A DNA stretch of 41,486 nt from Patescibacteria group bacterium. Lineage in GTDB: Bacteria; Patescibacteriota; Minisyncoccia; Moranbacterales; DUUL01. A model generated the notes under the pieces. The model saw only the letters and a list, made by a program, of their open reading frames with translations, was not told the origin of the DNA and searched no databases. The DNA lies in the NCBI GenBank assembly GCA_015493225.1, contig WGDO01000007.1:1-41486 (forward strand). The letters run 5' to 3'. Of the stretch, positions 7,604-40,522 are shown one piece after another (the stretch's first letter is position 1; each line of letters begins with the position of its first letter). The translations under genes and the position numbers were made by a program.

Positions 7604-10600
7604 TTAATCTGAGTCACCATCGCCACCTTCAGGATCATCCCACTCACAGCTGTATCCAGTCCAATCCCAGCCCGCTCCTTTTTTCAAACATTCAGCTTCT
7701 TTCTTGGCCGTGTTATTTAAAACACATCTTCCTCCTCGCCAAATATAACCACCTCTATTTAAACAAGCTTGCTGATCTGATATACAAGCACGGGCATTAA
7801 AATCCCAACTAGTACCTCCACCACAGGAGTGCGCTTGTGATTTAATAAATTGTTCTCGAGCGTTATTTATGACTCGCCTCTGACTAGACAAACTGGATAC
7901 ACGAGATTGAAGCTCTAACCGCCTTTTTTGATCAGTAACCCTGTTAAGTTCCTCTTGTAATTTTAAAATTTCTCTATCAATCTCTCTAATTTTATCATTA
8001 AAATTATTTGTAACATAACTCATAACAGTTCCCTTTGCCTTGTGTAATTGCTTAGAAACATCCGTTACACAATCCTGATCATGTCTTCGGTAACAATCAC
8101 TCAACTTATTACTTAGATGGATGTAGTCATTTACCACATTATTTCCCGGTAAATAATCAACAGTATTAGCCTCTAAAACACCTGGCAAAGCTCTAACATT
8201 CATTGCCCGAGTAAACTCATTCTGAACCATTCGCTCTGCTATATCAAATATCCCTTCTAACCCAGCCATTCCAGCAATTTGTCCCAATGGCGTATTCTTT
8301 AATGAATTATTGACAATTCTATCTACCGCTCCTATATCATTATTTGCCAAAGCTTGATTAATACGCCTCATATCGTTAGGAGCAATGTTATTATTTAATA
8401 AATTGGGAGCAACAGCCTCTTCGGTAGTCCGTTGCCATTCTTTTAACATTCTTTCCGACGGTCCACCAGTACCAATTCCAAAAGCACCAGCTATAGCGCC
8501 CAATGCACCACCAATAACTGCCCCTATTGGTCCATAAATTTCCCCTCCAACCGTAGCTCCAGCAGCAGCTACTGTTGCCACACCAACTGTTTCAGCATGA
8601 ACCGTCCCAGTTTGCACCAAATCCATTCCTATAGCCATCAACATCGAAACAAATGGCACTATAGCCGTAGCAGCTTGAGCGGCAGTCTGAGATCCTGCCG
8701 CCTCTAAAATTGCTTCATTAGTAAGTGCTTGATCTATAGAACCAGAAATAGCAATATTATTTACAGCATCAAGACCAACTGTATCTATTAGTGTTTGATT
8801 AATAGCATTTTGAACCGCCTGTGTAGCTAAATATTGACTAACCACAGCATTAGTAATTTCAGTCGTAATAACCCCCTGCCCAACATCTATTGCTGTTCTT
8901 TCCAAGTCTATACTACCATTATTTATTAATTGCCCTATAACACTACTACCAAATGATGACAATCCAGTTGTAACAACCCCCGTTTGACCAATCGGCATAC
9001 TCCCCTCTCCCCAAAGACTGGCATTATTATTTATTACTTCTGTTAAATAGCCTGATGACACATCTGTTGCAAACACCTTCACTGTTTCTCCAATATCCCC
9101 TGTACTAACAAGAGTAGCAGCAGTGTGTTCCATGGCATTACCAATATAACCATTCAAAGAATCATGGACATCCGTACTAATTAAATTATTTTCCGCCAAT
9201 GTATCCCAGGCAGCATTAAGGGCTAATCCTCCAGCACTTTCCACTAAACGATCCGTATCACCCAAAGACACAGCCGAAATAACACCTGTCGCCAAATCTG
9301 CCAATCCACTTTGCAATGATGTTAGATGCTTTTCCCCGTCGTTTCCAGGATCACCAAAAAGTTGTCGGGCCGCTTCCTGCCCAGTACTTTGGATAACATT
9401 TTCAGCCAAAATTCTAGTTCCCTGGTCAGCAGTCAAAGTTCCATTACTTAACATTCCCAAAACTTCTTTTGACCCTCTCGCCAAGCCATTAACTAGACCC
9501 GAATCTAAAAATTGATCCAGATTAAAATTATTAGGCACCTGCGATTGTACTTGTGACTGTGACTGTTGTACATCCACCTGACCAGATTGCACAGCCTCCT
9601 GCCCAGCTGATTGCAAAACCCCACTATCAATCTGCCCGACTGGAAGAACAGAAGAATCATTAGCTAAACCAGAAATCATATCCGAATTAACATCTCCATC
9701 ATCAGCCAATTTTACCTCATCACTAACTTCAGAAAAATAATTTGATGGATTATCAGGAGTAACCTTAGTATATTCTCTTCCATTATTATCTTTAAATTTA
9801 TCACCAATCTCATTAACAACACTAGAATTAATCCATCGTATATTCCCATCCTTATCAGCATAAGCAATACTTTCAATAACCTCATCTTCCGTAACTTTAT
9901 TTACTTTCACAGACTCTTCTTGCTTATCCCTACTGTTGGCAGCATCTGTTCCTACTTTATACTGAGAACCAAACTCCTCCCCCGCCTGCTCATAAGCAGT
10001 TTTTTCCTTTTTTCCAAATAATAACTTAAAAGGGTTTATTCTTGACCAAAAACTTTTTTCTTCTCTTTCGCTAACTTTAAGTGGTTTAATATTAATTTTA
10101 CTTGACTTATTAACATTACCGCCCCCTGACGCATCACCTCCTTCTATCGCTATTCTTTGATTTCTTTCTCCTGGTTTTATATTCACCAATGAAGCATCTG
10201 TGCCTGAAATAACAGTACTATCCTTATTAATCACAGACTCATTCCTTGGTGTAGTCACATTATCATTTTTATAATCTACTTCTGTGCTTCCACCATCTCC
10301 ATGATCAGAATCTTCATACCCAGTTAAAGTCCCTCTACTATCACTTTTTAAAGCCACCCTGTTATTGTCCTTTTCTGCAAGATCTTCTCCACTATCACAA
10401 AACCAAGTTCCAAAAAAGCACTTTTTATACTCTCCCGTCTTCTTATCCTTTTCATAGCCTTCATCTGGCAATAAATATTGTTTTGAAGTAAACTTTTTTT
10501 CAGAAGTTACAACACTATCATTTTCTCTGCTTGCAACTTTGTCTTTATTCTCACCATTTTTCTCAATTTTAATATCATTTCCTTTATTTATACCCGACTT

Positions 10601-13600
10601 TACTCCCTGATTAACTTGAACAATCGTATCTACTGGGTTTTTTTTACTATCAGCCAATTCAACAGGAGCTCTTTTTAAATTTGTATCCTTGTATGCTCTA
10701 CCCGTATCCGGATTAATCCAGGCTGGTGCCTTTTCAGTTGATATATCATTATTATTCTTAGCTAATTCTGTACCACTTTTACAGCCACTAAAAAAGCTAA
10801 ATATACTTCCCAAGGTACCACATTGTTCATAAGTCTTTTTTCCATTTGTATCTTGAGAAACGGAATAACTCTTTTTTTTGTCTAAATATATTCTTCCTTT
10901 TGGATAATCCTCATTACTAAATGGCAAGACATCTTCCGGTCTTCCTGGTATGTATGTATCATAAGATTTTTGTCCTGCATCAATATTTTCATTGACAACT
11001 TTTTGTGCCTTCGTCGCTGCTTGGTTTATGCCCTCGGCTGCAGAATTTAAAGTTTTCACTAATTGTTGTCCTGCATTACCTACTTGCTTACTTAAATTAT
11101 CTAATGTTTGAGCCCTCTCTTTAGGTGGCATTTGTGATAATCCATAAGCTCCCACAGCAAATAAGGTTGGCGCCCCAATACCAGCAGCTACGGCAGTAAT
11201 CCCAACTGTCTTAATGAGTGCGTTTATTTCATTTTCTGACATACTTCCAACTTTATCTGCCATATTTTTCATTTGAATAATTTCACCTGTTTTATTAAAC
11301 ACACCCAACACTTCATTATTATTACCAACAACAACTTTTATTATTTGCTGTGACCCATTATTAGCTCTTACTTTTACCTCTTTGACAGCATAATCACCAA
11401 CTTTTTTAGAAAAATTTTTGTCAATTCTTTTGTTATTTTGTAAAATATTACTAACCGGCTTAATTACCGAATCTCCTATACCAGATAATATTTGAGCTAT
11501 ACTACTTTCATTTTTTTCAGTTCTAAAAAAAGAATATTTTGTGTTACCCTGAGCAAATTTTTCTCCTCCTTTAGAATAAATAACTTCTCCATTTCTTTTA
11601 ACATAAGCAATTGGCTGTTTATCATTACCATAAATAAGAACATTCCCAGATGGACTTTTTTCTTGTTTTTTCCCTCTAAATTGAGAAGATTGCAATACTT
11701 CCTCTTGAGTTTTAAAAGACTTTCCATCATCAGTTAACATCCGAGAGCTAACAACCTTACCACCATTATCATTAACCTGAGCAGCCCGCTGTAATAAACT
11801 CCTAATTGGTTCATATTCTTTTTTATCATCAGGAGCCGAATAAGTTACTATGGGGTAAGCAGACTTAACTTGTTCATATTTTGATGAACCAAACATGTGC
11901 AATATATTATCTCCAAATAATCTTGAAGTTAACTTAATTGCCACACCAGGTCCTCCCGTAAATATCCCAGCGGTAGTTACCTTATTCATAATTCTAGATC
12001 CCTTTGTTGGAATTTTAGTTAATGGTTGAGACAATATGGCAACATTTTTTGAATTACGCCCTATTAAATAATTCCCTCGTTGCTCCCAGTGCGTTACTTC
12101 GTTATCTTTATGTTTAACAGAGGAAACAACTTCTTTTCTACCACTTGGAAGCACGCTAGGTAATTTATACTTCCCCAATTCAATTGCTTTTGTAAACAGC
12201 CTATCCACTTTCTCTGGATCTTTACTTCTTAGAATTGGACTCCTGAGCATATATCCAGTTTTATCTTCTTGCAAAAGAACAGCCTCTGGCATACCACTCT
12301 TTGTAACAATTACTGCACCACTGGGCATCTTTGTATATTTAACAGAACCATCATTTTTTAACGGGTAATTCTCTTTTAACCATCTTTTCTGTTCACTAAA
12401 TTTAGTATTTTTATTACTCTTTACATCTTGACTAGATGATTTATCAACGGCAACCACTTGCGGTGGATTAGTCCTCCTGTCTTTTGATTCTACATACCCA
12501 TATTTCCTTTTTGCTCTTTCCAACATCTTCCCATCAAAAGGAAGATATTCACTATCTCTCTCAAACAATTTCCGTCCATTAGCCATCGCTACCGGTTGAC
12601 CATTATTCTTATCTTCAACTATTAGTGCATTATTTCTACTCTTAGGAAGTCTTACATAGTTAAATTTATCTATAGGATATTTATCTTTTAATAAATCACG
12701 ATTTTTACTACTTATATCCCTAATATCCTCCTCTGTGCTATACACAGTAAGATCTTTACCAGCCCTTAAGGTTTTATCAGCAAGAGTGCTATCAACATCA
12801 ATTATTATCGGATCATCTACAAACGACACCTTATTTCCGTCTGCCCCAGTCACAAAAGAATTATCTTTATCAATTTGTTCCTGAATACCAGCAATTTCAT
12901 CTCCATACCCACTTTTCATATCATCCTTTCCATATTTCGTCACTGCTTTATTGTAGGCAGTGTCATTATTTTTATCTCCCCCAAACCCCGCAATCATTTC
13001 CCCATCAGTTCCAAAATAATCCTTCGCTTTTTGCTCTGTAATTTGTTTATTTTTATTCCCCCCAAACCAACTCTTAAATTTCTCCCAACCGCTGGACAAC
13101 CAAGCTTTTTTCTCTTTTTTGGAGGTATTAAAAGCACTACCTCCCAATCCTGTTGGGCGAAAATTTCCATTTTCATCATAACCATCACTAGGGGAAGCAA
13201 TAATTGGTACTTGATTTCCATTGTCACTATTTTCCCCAACTAAGCCACTGTTTAATAGTCCCTGTAAACGTTCTCTTTCTTGTATTAATCTGCGCTTAGT
13301 TTCTCGAGAGTCATTACCATTTGAATCTACCCTAATTCCATGTATGTTATTTATTTGCCGATTTATTTCATTAAGTCTTTGCTGGATTTGTATTCTAGAA
13401 GCACCTCTAATAGTACCTGTTGTTGGCATCTTACTCAAATCGTTATATTCGGCAGACCCTTCTATGCTATTTATTAAATCAGCTTCATGTGGATTTTTCT
13501 CGAAAGCTACTTCTTGTTGATTATTGCTAAGTTGATTATTACCTTTATTTGTAGAATCATCCAAGCCAACAATCTCATCACCATAACCATCTTTCATATC

Positions 13601-15739
13601 TGGTTGTATATACTTTTTTGCTAGATCATTATAAGCGGTGTCATTGGTTTCATTTTTCCCATTTTCATCCCCGGCCGTATAAAAACTATCCAAGGCATTA
13701 ACCCTTTCATCACTCTTTTTCTCACCATCGAACCAACTAAATGGATTTAATTTTGATAGCCAACCCTTCTTTTCCTCAACAGCCCTAAGCTTGGCGGATT
13801 GTTGGGAAGTGTTGGTTGGATCTGATTGGATTTCTTGTCTGGTATTATCAGAATATTTCTTCCAAACTTCCGGAGCAGTACCTTTAAATAATCCGGTTTT
13901 TGAATCTGTTACATTTCCATATTGATCTATAACCAAATTAGTATTATCCCCTTCTCCGGCGACACTTTCCTTTGGGCTAAATACTTTTCCGATTAAACCA
14001 TTGAGCCAACCTTCTTTCTTTTTGGCTAATTGAACCTTGTCTCCGGTAATCGGATCAATAACATCTCCATCGGTTTTCGGATTATATGGTCTGGTCTCCG
14101 CATAAAGTTCTTTTTGGTTTCCGGTGGCGTATTGTTTGGTGTCGGCGATTTCATTAAGCAATTTCGCTGCATCTCGTGGAGTTTTAATAATATTTATAAC
14201 TTGAGTAGTGTTACCATTTAAAGATCCTGGAGATTTTTTTTCTATTTCTATTAATTTTTCAACATCATCTTTAGTTATTTTATCTCCATATTCCTTATGC
14301 AAATATTTCATTAAATCATGCCTAAGATACCATAATCTAGTACGCACCTCTCCTAAATCAGTAATATAATCATAGCCAGCTTTTTTATAAGCTTCTGACG
14401 CAACTTTTTTCCACTCATCCTCACTTTTTAATGAATTTTTTATTAAAATTTTTGTCTTTTCTGGAAAGTCCCATCCCCTATTTCCATTCATATCAATAAT
14501 ATGCCCTGCTTCATGTGGAAGCTCATAACCAAGTTCGCCACATTCGGAAGATTCACAATCTTTATCTGTTTTATTTAAAATATCATCTTTATTAAGATAA
14601 ATATCATGTCCACCTACAGTTACCGCCCCCGTTGTTACCCCATTTATATCATTTTGCAATTCTCTACTATCATAACCCACAACTGATATCCTAGCATTAT
14701 CAAGCCTATCTAATCGCCTTTGTCTTGCTGCCTTTGCTTTTTCCTCATCATTATCATACTGAATAAGTAAACGCTTAAAATAAGCTGGGGAAGTTATTTC
14801 GTCACGCATGTTATTTACAATATTTAGAATTCGTTTTTTTAAATCACCACCAGCCACAATATTAATACCTTTATTTTTATTATCAACTATAACTACATTA
14901 GTATCATGTTCATAAGCTTTAGCTGATTGGCAACCCGACTTAAAAATATCTAAAAATCTATTACATTCTTCATAATAATAGTCAGGGTCCTCGATAACAT
15001 GACTATCCTCATCAGAGTTATCATTTAGATCATCTTTACTTTTTTTACGTATGTACTTTTTTCCAACGTCTAAAAAAATATTATCATCTATAGATATAAC
15101 TTGCTTAGTTTCAAATGGGAATATGAGATTATCTCCATAATCATCATCTTCCAAGTCAGAATCACTCTCATCTTCTCCAAACCCTGCTAAAATGTCCGTT
15201 TTTAGTTGCTTGTTGAATAATCCCACAAAGTCTGCCCAAAGCTTTTTGAAAAATCCGATTTTCTTTTTGGGTTGTTTATTGCTTAAATCAATATATTTAT
15301 CAATACCATCGACGCTATCATCATCTTTGCTTTTAATTTCCAGATCTTTATCATCATTATTTTTAGTCGCCTTCAAATCATCACTTAAAGCATCCACGGT
15401 TTTGTCTCCTAAAACCTCTCGAGCCACCAGTTCGGTTTTTAGGTCTGAAAATCCATTGGCAGTTTGCTGATTTTCTGTTTTTTCTTTTTTCCAAAATTCC
15501 CACCAATGACTTTTGGGCTGACTTTCTTGCATAATCTCATCAACTGTAATTGCATCGGCGGTTTCGATAACCTTAGCTTGAGCTACGGCCGGTTCTCCCA
15601 GAAAGTTAAGCTGTCCTTCACTCAATCCCCAAACCAAAAAACTGCCATTACTGGTGGCAAACATTAAAAGGGATAAAATCCCAGCTATAATTTTAGAAAC
15701 TTTTCTGTTTTTTATTTTTTTAGTTTGATTTTTCAACAT
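7604..15739 (-). CDS. Giant secreted multidomain protein (2711 aa) with HEAGH zincin motif, Trp-rich repeats, glycine-zipper segment and C-terminal Cys repeats
   Basis: Uninterrupted ORF; basic N-terminus plus hydrophobic segment (signal); HEAGH motif at 14501-14515; glycine-rich hydrophobic stretch near 8458-8600; three C-(GW-rich)-C repeats at the C-terminus. Confidence 0.9.
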   Translation of the reverse strand: MLKNQTKKIKNRKVSKIIAGILSLLMFATSNGSFLVWGLSEGQLNFLGEPAVAQAKVIETADAITVDEIMQESQPKSHWWEFWKKEKTENQQTANGFSDLKTELVAREVLGDKTVDALSDDLKATKNNDDKDLEIKSKDDDSVDGIDKYIDLSNKQPKKKIGFFKKLWADFVGLFNKQLKTDILAGFGEDESDSDLEDDDYGDNLIFPFETKQVISIDDNIFLDVGKKYIRKKSKDDLNDNSDEDSHVIEDPDYYYEECNRFLDIFKSGCQSAKAYEHDTNVVIVDNKNKGINIVAGGDLKKRILNIVNNMRDEITSPAYFKRLLIQYDNDEEKAKAARQRRLDRLDNARISVVGYDSRELQNDINGVTTGAVTVGGHDIYLNKDDILNKTDKDCESSECGELGYELPHEAGHIIDMNGNRGWDFPEKTKILIKNSLKSEDEWKKVASEAYKKAGYDYITDLGEVRTRLWYLRHDLMKYLHKEYGDKITKDDVEKLIEIEKKSPGSLNGNTTQVINIIKTPRDAAKLLNEIADTKQYATGNQKELYAETRPYNPKTDGDVIDPITGDKVQLAKKKEGWLNGLIGKVFSPKESVAGEGDNTNLVIDQYGNVTDSKTGLFKGTAPEVWKKYSDNTRQEIQSDPTNTSQQSAKLRAVEEKKGWLSKLNPFSWFDGEKKSDERVNALDSFYTAGDENGKNETNDTAYNDLAKKYIQPDMKDGYGDEIVGLDDSTNKGNNQLSNNQQEVAFEKNPHEADLINSIEGSAEYNDLSKMPTTGTIRGASRIQIQQRLNEINRQINNIHGIRVDSNGNDSRETKRRLIQERERLQGLLNSGLVGENSDNGNQVPIIASPSDGYDENGNFRPTGLGGSAFNTSKKEKKAWLSSGWEKFKSWFGGNKNKQITEQKAKDYFGTDGEMIAGFGGDKNNDTAYNKAVTKYGKDDMKSGYGDEIAGIQEQIDKDNSFVTGADGNKVSFVDDPIIIDVDSTLADKTLRAGKDLTVYSTEEDIRDISSKNRDLLKDKYPIDKFNYVRLPKSRNNALIVEDKNNGQPVAMANGRKLFERDSEYLPFDGKMLERAKRKYGYVESKDRRTNPPQVVAVDKSSSQDVKSNKNTKFSEQKRWLKENYPLKNDGSVKYTKMPSGAVIVTKSGMPEAVLLQEDKTGYMLRSPILRSKDPEKVDRLFTKAIELGKYKLPSVLPSGRKEVVSSVKHKDNEVTHWEQRGNYLIGRNSKNVAILSQPLTKIPTKGSRIMNKVTTAGIFTGGPGVAIKLTSRLFGDNILHMFGSSKYEQVKSAYPIVTYSAPDDKKEYEPIRSLLQRAAQVNDNGGKVVSSRMLTDDGKSFKTQEEVLQSSQFRGKKQEKSPSGNVLIYGNDKQPIAYVKRNGEVIYSKGGEKFAQGNTKYSFFRTEKNESSIAQILSGIGDSVIKPVSNILQNNKRIDKNFSKKVGDYAVKEVKVRANNGSQQIIKVVVGNNNEVLGVFNKTGEIIQMKNMADKVGSMSENEINALIKTVGITAVAAGIGAPTLFAVGAYGLSQMPPKERAQTLDNLSKQVGNAGQQLVKTLNSAAEGINQAATKAQKVVNENIDAGQKSYDTYIPGRPEDVLPFSNEDYPKGRIYLDKKKSYSVSQDTNGKKTYEQCGTLGSIFSFFSGCKSGTELAKNNNDISTEKAPAWINPDTGRAYKDTNLKRAPVELADSKKNPVDTIVQVNQGVKSGINKGNDIKIEKNGENKDKVASRENDSVVTSEKKFTSKQYLLPDEGYEKDKKTGEYKKCFFGTWFCDSGEDLAEKDNNRVALKSDSRGTLTGYEDSDHGDGGSTEVDYKNDNVTTPRNESVINKDSTVISGTDASLVNIKPGERNQRIAIEGGDASGGGNVNKSSKINIKPLKVSEREEKSFWSRINPFKLLFGKKEKTAYEQAGEEFGSQYKVGTDAANSRDKQEESVKVNKVTEDEVIESIAYADKDGNIRWINSSVVNEIGDKFKDNNGREYTKVTPDNPSNYFSEVSDEVKLADDGDVNSDMISGLANDSSVLPVGQIDSGVLQSAGQEAVQSGQVDVQQSQSQVQSQVPNNFNLDQFLDSGLVNGLARGSKEVLGMLSNGTLTADQGTRILAENVIQSTGQEAARQLFGDPGNDGEKHLTSLQSGLADLATGVISAVSLGDTDRLVESAGGLALNAAWDTLAENNLISTDVHDSLNGYIGNAMEHTAATLVSTGDIGETVKVFATDVSSGYLTEVINNNASLWGEGSMPIGQTGVVTTGLSSFGSSVIGQLINNGSIDLERTAIDVGQGVITTEITNAVVSQYLATQAVQNAINQTLIDTVGLDAVNNIAISGSIDQALTNEAILEAAGSQTAAQAATAIVPFVSMLMAIGMDLVQTGTVHAETVGVATVAAAGATVGGEIYGPIGAVIGGALGAIAGAFGIGTGGPSERMLKEWQRTTEEAVAPNLLNNNIAPNDMRRINQALANNDIGAVDRIVNNSLKNTPLGQIAGMAGLEGIFDIAERMVQNEFTRAMNVRALPGVLEANTVDYLPGNNVVNDYIHLSNKLSDCYRRHDQDCVTDVSKQLHKAKGTVMSYVTNNFNDKIREIDREILKLQEELNRVTDQKRRLELQSRVSSLSSQRRVINNAREQFIKSQAHSCGGGTSWDFNARACISDQQACLNRGGYIWRGGRCVLNNTAKKEAECLKKGAGWDWTGYSCEWDDPEGGDGDSD

Positions 15740-16849: not shown

Positions 16850-17011
16850 TAGACCTCTTGCAAAACCATTCGCTTAATAAAAAAGCTTAGATTTTCTGTT
16901 AATTTTTCTACATAAATTTTTTTCTTATGCCTTAGCATAGGACAAAAATTTTAAAGGAAAATTAGCAGAAAAGATTGGTTTTTTATAGTGAAGGATTTTG
17001 CAAGAGGTCTA
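16850..17011. mobile_element. 162-bp palindromic MITE-like element A (TAGACCTCTTGCAAAA ... TTTTGCAAGAGGTCTA)
   Basis: Perfect 16-bp terminal inverted repeats, imperfect pairing through the arms, apical TATGC-CTTA-GCATA; possible TA target duplication. Confidence 0.75.
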
Positions 17012-17061: not shown

Positions 17062-17180
17062 CTTCTAGTTCCCCTCCTTTGTAAAGGAGGGGTTAGGGGT
17101 GGATTTAGATTTAAATTTTAAAATTCACAATTTTTTAAATCCCCCCTTAGTCCCCCCTTTTTCAAAGAGGAGAAAGCTAA
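17062..17180. repeat. G/C-tract palindromic intergenic repeats (AGTTCCCCTCCTTTGTAAAGGAGGGGTTAGGGGTGGATTT and an inverted relative)
   Basis: Near-identical copy at 25931-25976; inverted-orientation relative at about 17138-17180. Confidence 0.8.
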
Positions 17181-24378: not shown

Positions 24379-24466
24379 CCCTAGCTTCCCCCTTTTTTAA
24401 AGGGGGGATTGAGGGGGGATTTCCCTAGCTTCCCCCCTTTGGCAAAGGGGGGATTGAGAGGGGATT
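24379..24466. repeat. Two tandem copies of CCCTAGCTTCCCCC...GGGGGGATTGAGGGGGGATTT-type palindromic repeat (about 44 bp)
   Basis: Direct repeats read at 24379-24422 and 24423-24466. Confidence 0.85.
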
Positions 24467-24723
24467 TTAAGAATTTAAAATTTGAAATTTTTCAGCCCCA
24501 GGCTGACCAGCTTTGGGCCGGCAATTTAAATTCAATTTAAAATACTTTAATTTAAAAACTACTAGATACAAATTAAATACATCCCCTTTAAAACAGATTA
24601 TAAAATATACAGATAAATTAAAAATTCAAACATTAAAAATTGAATTTAAATTTTAAATTTTAAATTTTAAAACGACGCAAGTCCTTAGTTTCGTTAAAAT
24701 ATAAACAAAGTAAATTTTTAATT

Positions 24724-25884: not shown

Positions 25885-25976
25885 TACCTTAGTTCCCCTC
25901 CTTTTGTAAAGGAGGGATTAGGGGTGGATTTACCTTAGTTCCCCTCCTTTGTAAAGGAGGGGTTAGGGGTGGATTT
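25885..25976. repeat. Two tandem copies (about 46 bp) of TACCTTAGTTCCCCTCCTTTGTAAAGGAGGGGTTAGGGGTGGATTT
   Basis: 25885-25930 and 25931-25976 nearly identical; a degenerate copy precedes (about 25813-25884) and an inverted relative follows (about 26000-26040). Confidence 0.88.
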
Positions 25977-37109: not shown

Positions 37110-38093
37110 CTACTTTTTTGCTTTTAAAATTATTCCTAAACCACCAATGGCTTTTCTAATTTCCTTAACGCCCTTATCTCCCATGCCCTCTAACTCCAAT
37201 AAGTCCATTTCTGTCATTTTTTCTATTTGAGCAATGGTCGTAATTTTATTGTCTTCCAAAACACTAGCCGTTCTAGTTGGTAAATTTAACTCACTAATTT
37301 CTGTAACTTCCACAACTTTTTTCTTTGGCGCTTCTTCGTCTGTATCAACTTCAGTAACAGCTTCTTCTTCTGCCTCTTTTTTGGCCTTAGCAGCCTCTTC
37401 CGACCCATCACTGATGGTAGCTACAGCACCAAATTGAGCCAATAAAATTTCCACAGATTTTTGATAAGCATCATCCGGTGCAATACTACCATCAGTCACA
37501 ATATCCAAAACAACTTTTTCATAATCAGTTCTTTTCCCAACCCGCATATTACTCACAGTAAAATTAACTCTTTTTACTGGATTATAAATAGCATCCACAG
37601 CAATGGTTCCAATTTCTTTTTCATCGCCTCTTTGTTCCACTGGCACATATCCCAATCCTTTTTTAACTTTTACCTCTAAATCCAAAGTAGTACTAGGACT
37701 AGTAATTGTAGCAATATGCTCATCGGGAGTTACCACTGTTAGTTCAGAGGTTGTTTCAAAATCAGCTGCTGTTATATCCTTTTTGCCCTTAACTTTCAAA
37801 AAAGCAGTGGCTTCATCAACTCCATCCAATTTAAATCGCACTCCCTTTAGATTTAAAATAATTTGAACAACATCTTCAACCACACCATCAATTGCTGCAA
37901 ATTCATGGGTTACACCCTTAATTTTAACAGAAACTATAGCATTTCCTTCCAGAGAAGATAATAAAACCCTCCTTAGAGAGTTCCCGATGGTTGCCCCATA
38001 GCGAGGAAAACATTCCTCAATAATTATTTGTCCAGTTTTGTCGTCCTCTCCTTTTTTGTAAATAGGACTTTTTGGTAAAGAGATTGAAAACAT
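37110..38093 (-). CDS. rpoA: DNA-directed RNA polymerase subunit alpha
   Basis: FPRYGATIGNSLRRVLLSSLEGNAIVSVKIKGVTHEFAAIDGVVEDVVQIILNLK; alpha-CTD ISELNLPTRTASVLEDNKITTIAQI. Confidence 0.98.
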   Translation of the reverse strand: MFSISLPKSPIYKKGEDDKTGQIIIEECFPRYGATIGNSLRRVLLSSLEGNAIVSVKIKGVTHEFAAIDGVVEDVVQIILNLKGVRFKLDGVDEATAFLKVKGKKDITAADFETTSELTVVTPDEHIATITSPSTTLDLEVKVKKGLGYVPVEQRGDEKEIGTIAVDAIYNPVKRVNFTVSNMRVGKRTDYEKVVLDIVTDGSIAPDDAYQKSVEILLAQFGAVATISDGSEEAAKAKKEAEEEAVTEVDTDEEAPKKKVVEVTEISELNLPTRTASVLEDNKITTIAQIEKMTEMDLLELEGMGDKGVKEIRKAIGGLGIILKAKK

Positions 38094-38140
38094 TTGCTTT
38101 AAAATTAATGTTTATATTAAAACTTTTTATATTTGACTAA

Positions 38141-38302
38141 TAGACCTTTCCGGAAACTATCTCCCGCTGCAATTTTCCACTTTTGGTAAAATTTATTTCA
38201 AACTTTTTCAACTTAGCTAAGGCTAAATTTTCAAAAGTTGTTCAATAAATTTTACTCAAAACTAGCAAATTTCGTGACGAAGCTAATTTCCGGAGAGGTC
38301 TA
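38141..38302. mobile_element. 162-bp palindromic MITE-like element B (TAGACCTTTCCGGAAA ... TTTCCGGAGAGGTCTA)
   Basis: 16-bp terminal inverted repeats with one mismatch, internal complementary GTAAAATTTATT/AATAAATTTTAC and AACTTTT/AAAAGTT, same length and same central GCCTTAGC position as element A. Confidence 0.75.
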
Positions 38303-38315
38303 ATTAATAATCTAA

Positions 38316-38954
38316 TTATCTAGAATAAAATTCGATAACCATTGCCATATTAACATTTATTCCAATTTCATCCTTTGTAGGATTTGCCAATACTTTACCT
38401 TCCATTTTTCCAGCATCAAAACTAAGCCATTTTGCCTGAGTTGAACTTTTCTTTAGAGCGGTCTTAGCTTCTTTCATGAAAGCTTTGTCTAGTTTATTCT
38501 TTTTAACAGACACCTTGTCACCAATTCTCAAAAGAGCAGATGGAACATTTAAAGTTTTTTTACCAACCTTAAAGGCTCTATGAGAAACTAATTGCCTAGC
38601 CTGTGTTCTACTTTGAGCTACACCCAATCGATAAACAATATTGTCTAATCTGGACTCTAATAAAATTAATAAATTATCTCCCAGTACTCCACTTTTCTTT
38701 TTTGCCAAAGATAAATATCTTCTTAGTTGCTTCTCGGAAATACCATAAATTCTCTTCAACTTTTGTTTTTCAGCTAATTGTTTTCCATATTCTGAGAAAC
38801 CTCTTCTCATTCCTTCGGTATTACCATGAGCTCCAGGAGCATAGGCTTTTCTAACCAAAGCACATTTAGGACTAGAACAACGGTCTCCTTTCAAAAACAG
38901 TTTTTCTCCTGCCCTTCTACATTGTTTACATTTTGATGATAATATTTTTGCCAT
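38316..38954 (-). CDS. rpsD: 30S ribosomal protein S4 (start at MAKILSSK rather than the longer ORF-track start)
   Basis: MAKILSSKCKQCRRAGEKLFLKGDRCSSPKCALVRKAYAPGAHG...; zinc-type S4 with CxxC. Confidence 0.96.
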   Translation of the reverse strand: MAKILSSKCKQCRRAGEKLFLKGDRCSSPKCALVRKAYAPGAHGNTEGMRRGFSEYGKQLAEKQKLKRIYGISEKQLRRYLSLAKKKSGVLGDNLLILLESRLDNIVYRLGVAQSRTQARQLVSHRAFKVGKKTLNVPSALLRIGDKVSVKKNKLDKAFMKEAKTALKKSSTQAKWLSFDAGKMEGKVLANPTKDEIGINVNMAMVIEFYSR

Positions 38955-38976
38955 TTTTATGTCTGCTAAATCTAAA

Positions 38977-39492
38977 TTATACTCTTCTTGGTTTCTTTGG
39001 ACGACAACCATTGTGTGGTACTGGCGTCATATCTTTAATTGCCAATAGGTTATATCCCTTTTGAGCTAATGCTCTTAGAGCAGCGTCTCGACCACTACCA
39101 ACGCCCCTAACAAAAACTTCTATATCTTTTAAACCATATTTTTGAACTTTCTCATCAGCATCCAAAGCTACTTGATTCGCAGCATAGGTTGTTGCCTTCT
39201 TAGCTCCCTTAAATCCTAGTAAACCAGCCGATGACCAAGCCAATGAATTACCATGCATATCCGTAAACAACACTAAGGTATTATTATAAGATGACTTAAT
39301 ATAAGCTCGCCCTCTTCTAACTTGTCGTCTAATTTTACGACGCTTTTTCTTAGTTACCGGAGCATCCTCCGATGGAGTTTCAACGGCAGTCTTATCTTTT
39401 TTTATAACCTTAGCTGGAGAATCTTTCTTTGCTTCATCTTTTTTCTTTATCTCCTCTGGTATTTTTTTGTCTTCTGATGTGTTATCACTCAT
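38977..39492 (-). CDS. rpsK: 30S ribosomal protein S11 with charged N-terminal extension
   Basis: GRAYIKSSYNNTLVLFTDMHGNSLAWSSAGLLGFKGAKKATTYAAN...DMTPVPHNGCRPKKPRRV. Confidence 0.98.
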   Translation of the reverse strand: MSDNTSEDKKIPEEIKKKDEAKKDSPAKVIKKDKTAVETPSEDAPVTKKKRRKIRRQVRRGRAYIKSSYNNTLVLFTDMHGNSLAWSSAGLLGFKGAKKATTYAANQVALDADEKVQKYGLKDIEVFVRGVGSGRDAALRALAQKGYNLLAIKDMTPVPHNGCRPKKPRRV

Positions 39493-40421: not shown

Positions 40422-40522
40422 GTCAAATTTTCAAGGTATCATTTTCGGACGCATGTTTGACACTTTCTTGGTTCAACAAAGCGTCAAACATCAGGTAGAA
40501 AATGACACCTTGAAAATTTGAC
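40422..40522 (-). promoter_or_regulatory. 101-nt long hairpin in the predicted infA leader
   Basis: Nested perfect arms: 40422-40437/40507-40522 (16 bp), 40439-40446/40498-40505 (8 bp), 40453-40461/40483-40491 (9 bp); A40438/C40506 becomes a G-U pair only on minus-strand RNA. Confidence 0.8.

Follow-up and report, generated by a model that had tools for sequence, protein, structure and literature searches.

Concerted ends and a covarying hairpin in an IS5-family MITE from a Patescibacterial genome

The window analyzed here, a 41,486-nucleotide stretch of a Patescibacteria group bacterium genome (assembly GCA_015493225.1, contig WGDO01000007.1), contains two imperfect 162-bp palindromes and raises the question of how an inverted repeat can change in sequence while its arms continue to pair. 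Element B spans positions 38141-38302 (TAGACC...GGTCTA) and element A positions 16850-17011. A preliminary description of this DNA had reported that both are 162 bp long and share a common centre, with arms that differ but still pair; the sequence and the predicted folds agree. Each element is predicted to form one long hairpin, with a folding energy of -73.1 kcal/mol for A and, for B, of -48.2 kcal/mol on the plus strand and -63.8 kcal/mol on the minus strand. The better-folding (Q) strand of B is co-directional with the flanking ribosomal operon.

We compared A with the reverse complement of B. GCCTTAGC is central in both, with ATGCCTTAGCAT and TAGCCTTAGCTA at positions 78-89. The first nine bases are the same (TAGACCTCT) and are followed by TGCAAAA in A versus CCGGAAA in B, each of which pairs inside its own element. 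Ungapped, the cores (positions 20-143) are identical at 58 of 124 positions, compared with 37.4 ± 4.8 matches in shuffled cores (maximum 56 in 5,000). As this identity lies beyond all 5,000 shuffles, A and B are homologous rather than alike by chance. Judged from their sequences, they are two subfamilies of one family, with B in the CCGG/TCGG subfamily and A in the TTGCAAAA subfamily. Terminal inverted repeats measure 18-19 bp and match at 16 to 19 of 19 positions in the copies compared (17 of 19 in B). No open reading frame (ORF) of at least 100 amino acids overlaps B, which at 160 bp contains no transposase gene.

Table 1. Elements A and B, their parts, and the genes beside B (window coordinates)
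Feature	Position	Strand	Remark
rpoA (RNA polymerase alpha)	37110..38093	-	Downstream neighbor of B
B left target-site duplication, AAT	38139..38141	.	ANT rule
Element B, near-palindromic 160-bp MITE	38142..38301	-	Better-folding (Q) strand is -
B left terminal inverted repeat (AGACCTTTCCGGAAACTA)	38142..38159	+	
B right terminal inverted repeat (AGACCTCTCCGGAAATTA on - strand)	38284..38301	-	
B right target-site duplication, AAT	38302..38304	.	ANT rule
rpsD (ribosomal protein S4)	38316..39011	-	Upstream neighbor of B
Element A, 160-bp MITE	16851..17010	+	TTGCAAAA subfamily

Using sequence patterns, we searched the genome that contains the window (G000; 1.31 Mb, 87 contigs, 91% complete) and obtained 22 two-ended copies. 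Fifteen measure exactly 162 bp and one 161 bp; the other six, at 183-372 bp, contain nested inserts. Further family members, for which the preliminary description had proposed a search, thus exist in this genome, with relatives elsewhere. We then collected the flanks of 110 elements from many genomes. The left flank carried A in 105 of 110 cases and the right flank T in 106 of 110, and the middle base N was equal on both sides in 88 of 110 (38.6 expected). These statistics identify AGACCT...AGGTCT as the mobile unit and a 3-bp ANT as its target duplication; they rule out our first reading, an IS630-like duplication of TA only. Although the palindrome of B lies where the preliminary description had placed it, the mobile unit is therefore 160 bp long, as the outer T and A are part of the duplication. 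The flanks of A, GTT and ATT, are one mismatch away from an ANT duplication and retain its trace.

B interrupts the gap between rpsD and rpoA as an insertion. This gap measures 222 bp with B and 59 bp once the element and its duplication are subtracted; in 9 of 10 relatives it measures 43-70 bp. Relatives lack B in the orthologous gap. A recognizable relative of B was present in 11 of the 184 genomes searched, its own included, a patchy distribution.

Some copies carry other insertions. A palindrome of ~90 bp, CCAACC...GGCTGG, is inserted six times in five B-type or A-type copies (L082, L086, L090, L088, and twice in L079), always adjoining TTTG or TTTT and without a visible target duplication. 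It may represent a second miniature element, one targeted in the manner of IS200/IS605. In copy C48 of G000 (L087), a GC-rich 21-bp palindrome, CCTGCCTCGCCGGCAGGCAAG, sits in one arm.

Cyanobacteria and three Patescibacteria yielded autonomous relatives of these elements that share their ends and encode an IS5-type transposase (PF13359). Autonomous insertion sequences (ISs) of 943 bp (ends AGACCTCTTGCGAAATAA) and 1060 bp (ends AGACCTCTTGCAAAATAA) occur in two genomes of the window's order, and IS5-type transposases are scarce in this order (4 of 128 genomes). In Staskawiczbacterium, a 1100-bp autonomous IS has ends AGACCTGTCCCTAAATAA and flanks ACT/ACT (L321:955-2136); near its 5′ end it is interrupted by a 79-bp MITE with ends almost like those of the IS, and an identical copy of this MITE adjoins its right end. 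A Nostoc metagenome-assembled genome contains a 951-bp autonomous element with the same ends, flanks ATT/ATT, and a PF13359 transposase with one stop codon. Elements of the same plan are the plasmid elements of Nostoc (C057) and ISMae4 of Microcystis, whose proteins exceed the NCBI score cut-off for IS5 transposases (NF033581); the Patescibacterial transposase falls below it. Pairs of terminal repeats ~1-3 kb apart in our first set of loci were candidates for autonomous elements and turned out to be host genes between two MITEs.

From these relatives, A and B are IS5-family MITEs that probably lie near the ISL2 group. The ISL2 group makes a 3-bp ANT target duplication. This duplication, together with a survey of such elements in Amoebophilus (PMC3196728), suggests the ISL2 placement: relatives of the ISL2-group elements ISCaa2 and ISCaa3 occur in Orientia, Legionella, Parachlamydia, and a cyanobacterial sister group, and these intracellular and cyanobacterial hosts resemble those seen here. 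The exact pattern of TTGC-type ends matched at least 113 stretches of DNA, from Cyanobacteria, Chlamydiae, Rickettsiales, Legionella, gut Firmicutes, Verrucomicrobia, and Patescibacteria; among the scanned matches in viral contigs, only two had symmetric ends. That Patescibacteria, Chlamydiae, Cyanobacteria, Rickettsiales, and gut Firmicutes share these ends is a marker of wide horizontal spread of small elements. In G008 (L061, L070, L076), the interior of B occurs with quite different ends of the GGGACTGTTTTCAATTA type, and these elements look like a B core borne by another end system.

Searches of the 91% complete G000 returned no match to PF13359 or PF01609. As we found no IS5-type transposase in G000, G110, G034, or G084, we infer the mobilizer. 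A MITE does not strictly need a transposase in its own genome.

To ask whether the hairpin covaries beyond phylogeny, the comparison that the preliminary description had named, we aligned 26 Patescibacterial homologs over their full length. In the resulting 67-pair hairpin, with the pairing map derived from the same alignment as was tested, 88.5% of cells pair, compared with 73.7% in shuffles and 32-48% when the arms were slid against each other; the covariation score was 0.365 versus 0.119 in shuffles. For a tree-based null, each column's substitutions were redistributed over the branches in 200 replicates. The ends underwent 19 double changes from one Watson-Crick pair to another versus 1.4 ± 1.1 under the null (maximum 4 in 200), and the interior 49 versus 5.5 ± 2.2 (maximum 12). 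These changes are scattered across the tree of the 26 elements. The whole hairpin thus covaries beyond phylogeny, an unusual yet well-supported property for an IS5-derived MITE; by itself, such covariation is no proof of RNA function. The interior has kept its pairing slowly, by way of many intermediates that do not pair, and this looks like selection on the ability of the element to fold.

The ends behave differently from the interiors. When copies of one genome are compared, the outer 19 bp of both ends change together, even at hypervariable positions, and the interiors do not. On trees built from the interiors of three genome sets, we counted 30 changes to the same base on the same branch at the two ends (~5.7 expected) and nine in the interiors (~4.5 expected). 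Comparisons of the eleven copies in G110 revealed 6% difference in the interior versus 71% at end positions 8 and 13, where four and three bases, respectively, occur on near-identical interiors while neighboring end positions are fixed. Of 66 cells at polymorphic positions, 55 agree between the two ends of a copy (permutation maximum 53 in 20,000), and the relatedness of interiors does not predict that of ends. End matching stops sharply at position 19/20 in G185. A Parachlamydiaceae genome carries several end types (GCATAATTC, GCATCATTC, GCGTAATTA, TCGAAACTC) whose interiors are closely related; the two ends match up to position 19, and just inside it the arms differ. In G000, copy C72 has double changes private to that copy. 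In one G034 copy the apex is inverted, matching at 34 of 41 positions when inverted versus 25 of 40 when read directly. Thus, the ends evolve in concert.

We consider it probable that A and B belong to a non-autonomous hairpin MITE family that uses IS5-family transposases and whose pairing is maintained at two speeds. The element inserts with a 3-bp ANT duplication, exists in multiple, patchily distributed copies, and shares its ends with autonomous ISs of the same order and of Cyanobacteria. A transposase of the PF13613/PF13359 type, supplied from outside or since lost, would recognize a AGACCTNTTGC-like sequence at both ends. In the outermost 19 bp, template switching or hairpin-templated repair would most likely copy a change in one arm to the other, perhaps at the stage of transposition that brings the two ends together. 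Compensatory change, as observed among the homologs, retains the full-length hairpin. This scheme would combine trans-mobilization, template switching, and selection on folding. The contrast between concerted ends and interiors favors arm-to-arm copying by template switching together with long-term selection on the hairpin. Arm-to-arm copying would explain the one-step matching at positions where any base occurs, the sharp inner edge, and the inverted apex in G034. Such an inversion is a signature of template switching between repeat arms, for which one-step arm matching is described as well (PMC8604942, PMC8794818).

One challenge to this scheme is that the ends may be symmetric only because one transposase binds both, with each end variant following a different IS5 transposase and end pairing a by-product. 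We regard this as possible, though we doubt it. Autonomous ISs of ~1 kb, which are unable to form the hairpin, still bear matched, differing ends (GCGAAATAA, GCAAAATAA, GTCCCTAAATAA), and co-selection by a transposase therefore fits as well. In Cyanobacteria, the ends of the parent ISs are asymmetric beyond position 12, and the MITE ends are asymmetric too: positions 14, 17, and 19 are not matched beyond chance. Arm-to-arm copying is thus not inevitable, and transposase matching may set part of the pattern. However, binding should not require matching at a position that tolerates any base, such as positions 8 and 13 in G110, where adjacent positions are fixed and no matching transposase was found, and it leaves the interior covariation unexplained. 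The pairing may be kept by selection, template switching, or transposase matching. Of the two forces that the preliminary description had put forward, arm-to-arm correction is directly supported by the concerted, often copy-private end changes of nearly identical copies and by the inverted apex, and selection would account for the interior.

A doubtful variant is that one end is re-made from the other during transposition, by hairpin-templated synthesis or by correction at the joined ends. The two ends of each new copy would then be newly matched to each other and would diversify rapidly, and end copying would add a hitherto undescribed step to the IS5-type transposition cycle. The remark that 15 copies of ISCaa9, an IS5 element, differ solely in their inverted repeats (PMC3196728) would fit such re-making.

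The covariation could also be read as that of a conserved functional host RNA (a regulator, mRNA stabilizer, or small RNA) that spread by transposition, with one strand selected. One strand folds better in all 26 homologs (mean 12.8 kcal/mol), and strong covariation accompanies the conserved subterminal motifs CTACTGCAATTT and AAATTTCGTTACG. This reading is nevertheless unlikely. The orientation of elements relative to co-directional neighboring genes is neutral (18 sense versus 19 antisense), which speaks against selection for a sense transcript, and the distribution over 11 of 184 genomes is patchy. An Rfam search of the window gave no match. The excess of G-U over A-C for single changes is weak (48 to 28, p 0.03; 43 to 28, p 0.10); a strong G-U strand bias among RNAalifold pairs became weaker once pairs were chosen regardless of G-U. 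Selection on the interior could act on foldability as DNA or as RNA.

We think it quite unlikely that gene conversion between copies homogenized the interiors and preserved the end types, such that matched ends are old and interiors new. Interiors in G110 and G185 are indeed far more alike than ends and, as noted, do not predict end relatedness, but the matched ends would still need an origin, and neither the invariant positions beside 8 and 13 nor the private double changes of copy C72 would be explained. Finally, many MITE subfamilies have different arms, yet separate births by inverted duplication, with pairing due to common descent of the arms, are highly improbable given the A-B core alignment, and full-length alignment of the 26 elements with compensatory changes across their tree refutes them for the Patescibacterial set.

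Among known repeats, ERIC, the Correia element, RUP, and QMITE2 have ends and target duplications other than those of the A/B family. Like it, they are short MITE-type repeats present in multiple copies, and their transcripts fold strongly (PMC10969869). The preliminary description had called the elements unusual for a simple MITE; as hairpin-forming MITEs are already described (PMC10969869), that contrast is not supported, and A and B show every MITE feature we tested (terminal inverted repeats, ANT duplications, multiple copies, patchy distribution, and autonomous IS5 relatives with the same ends). The ISL2 group and ISMae4 share host groups, ends (AGACCTCTTGC), and, in autonomous relatives, a DDE_Tnp_4 transposase with the A/B family, whose elements differ in being ~160 bp long and without a gene. 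The cyanobacterial members can be likened, by description, to Nezha, an IS-driven cyanobacterial MITE for which mobilization by ISNpu3-like elements was proposed (cited in PMC3049150). Template-switch homogenization of inverted repeats and RNA hairpins likewise produces one-event arm matching, with spacer inversion as a by-product; its sources describe it for RNA genes and coding inverted repeats, not MITE ends (PMC8794818, PMC8604942). In the literature searched, we found no description of whole-stem compensatory change or of matching hypervariable ends, and searches for the end sequence returned nothing relevant.

A and B are thus IS5-derived MITEs of a known kind, with concerted ends and a covarying hairpin as their unusual, well-supported property. 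Little has been written on MITEs and their parent transposases in Patescibacteria, and our literature search found no paper joining the two terms. The matched hypervariable ends amount to a natural experiment on how inverted repeats stay paired, since each candidate process (compensatory selection, template switching, transposase matching) should leave a pattern of its own, to be counted across many copies. They also caution that a repeat family may covary for reasons other than RNA function.

The window contains other repeats. Near the ribosomal cluster, positions 40422-40522 form another near-perfect palindrome, with 49-bp arms that are 84% complementary, a 3-nt loop, and no TAGACCT ends. 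Hairpin repeats of the CCCTCCTTTGTAAAGGAGGGG type are dispersed, some in tandem, at 17072-17106, 24388-24467, and 25897-25976. An ORF of 2711 codons occupies 7604-15739 on the minus strand.
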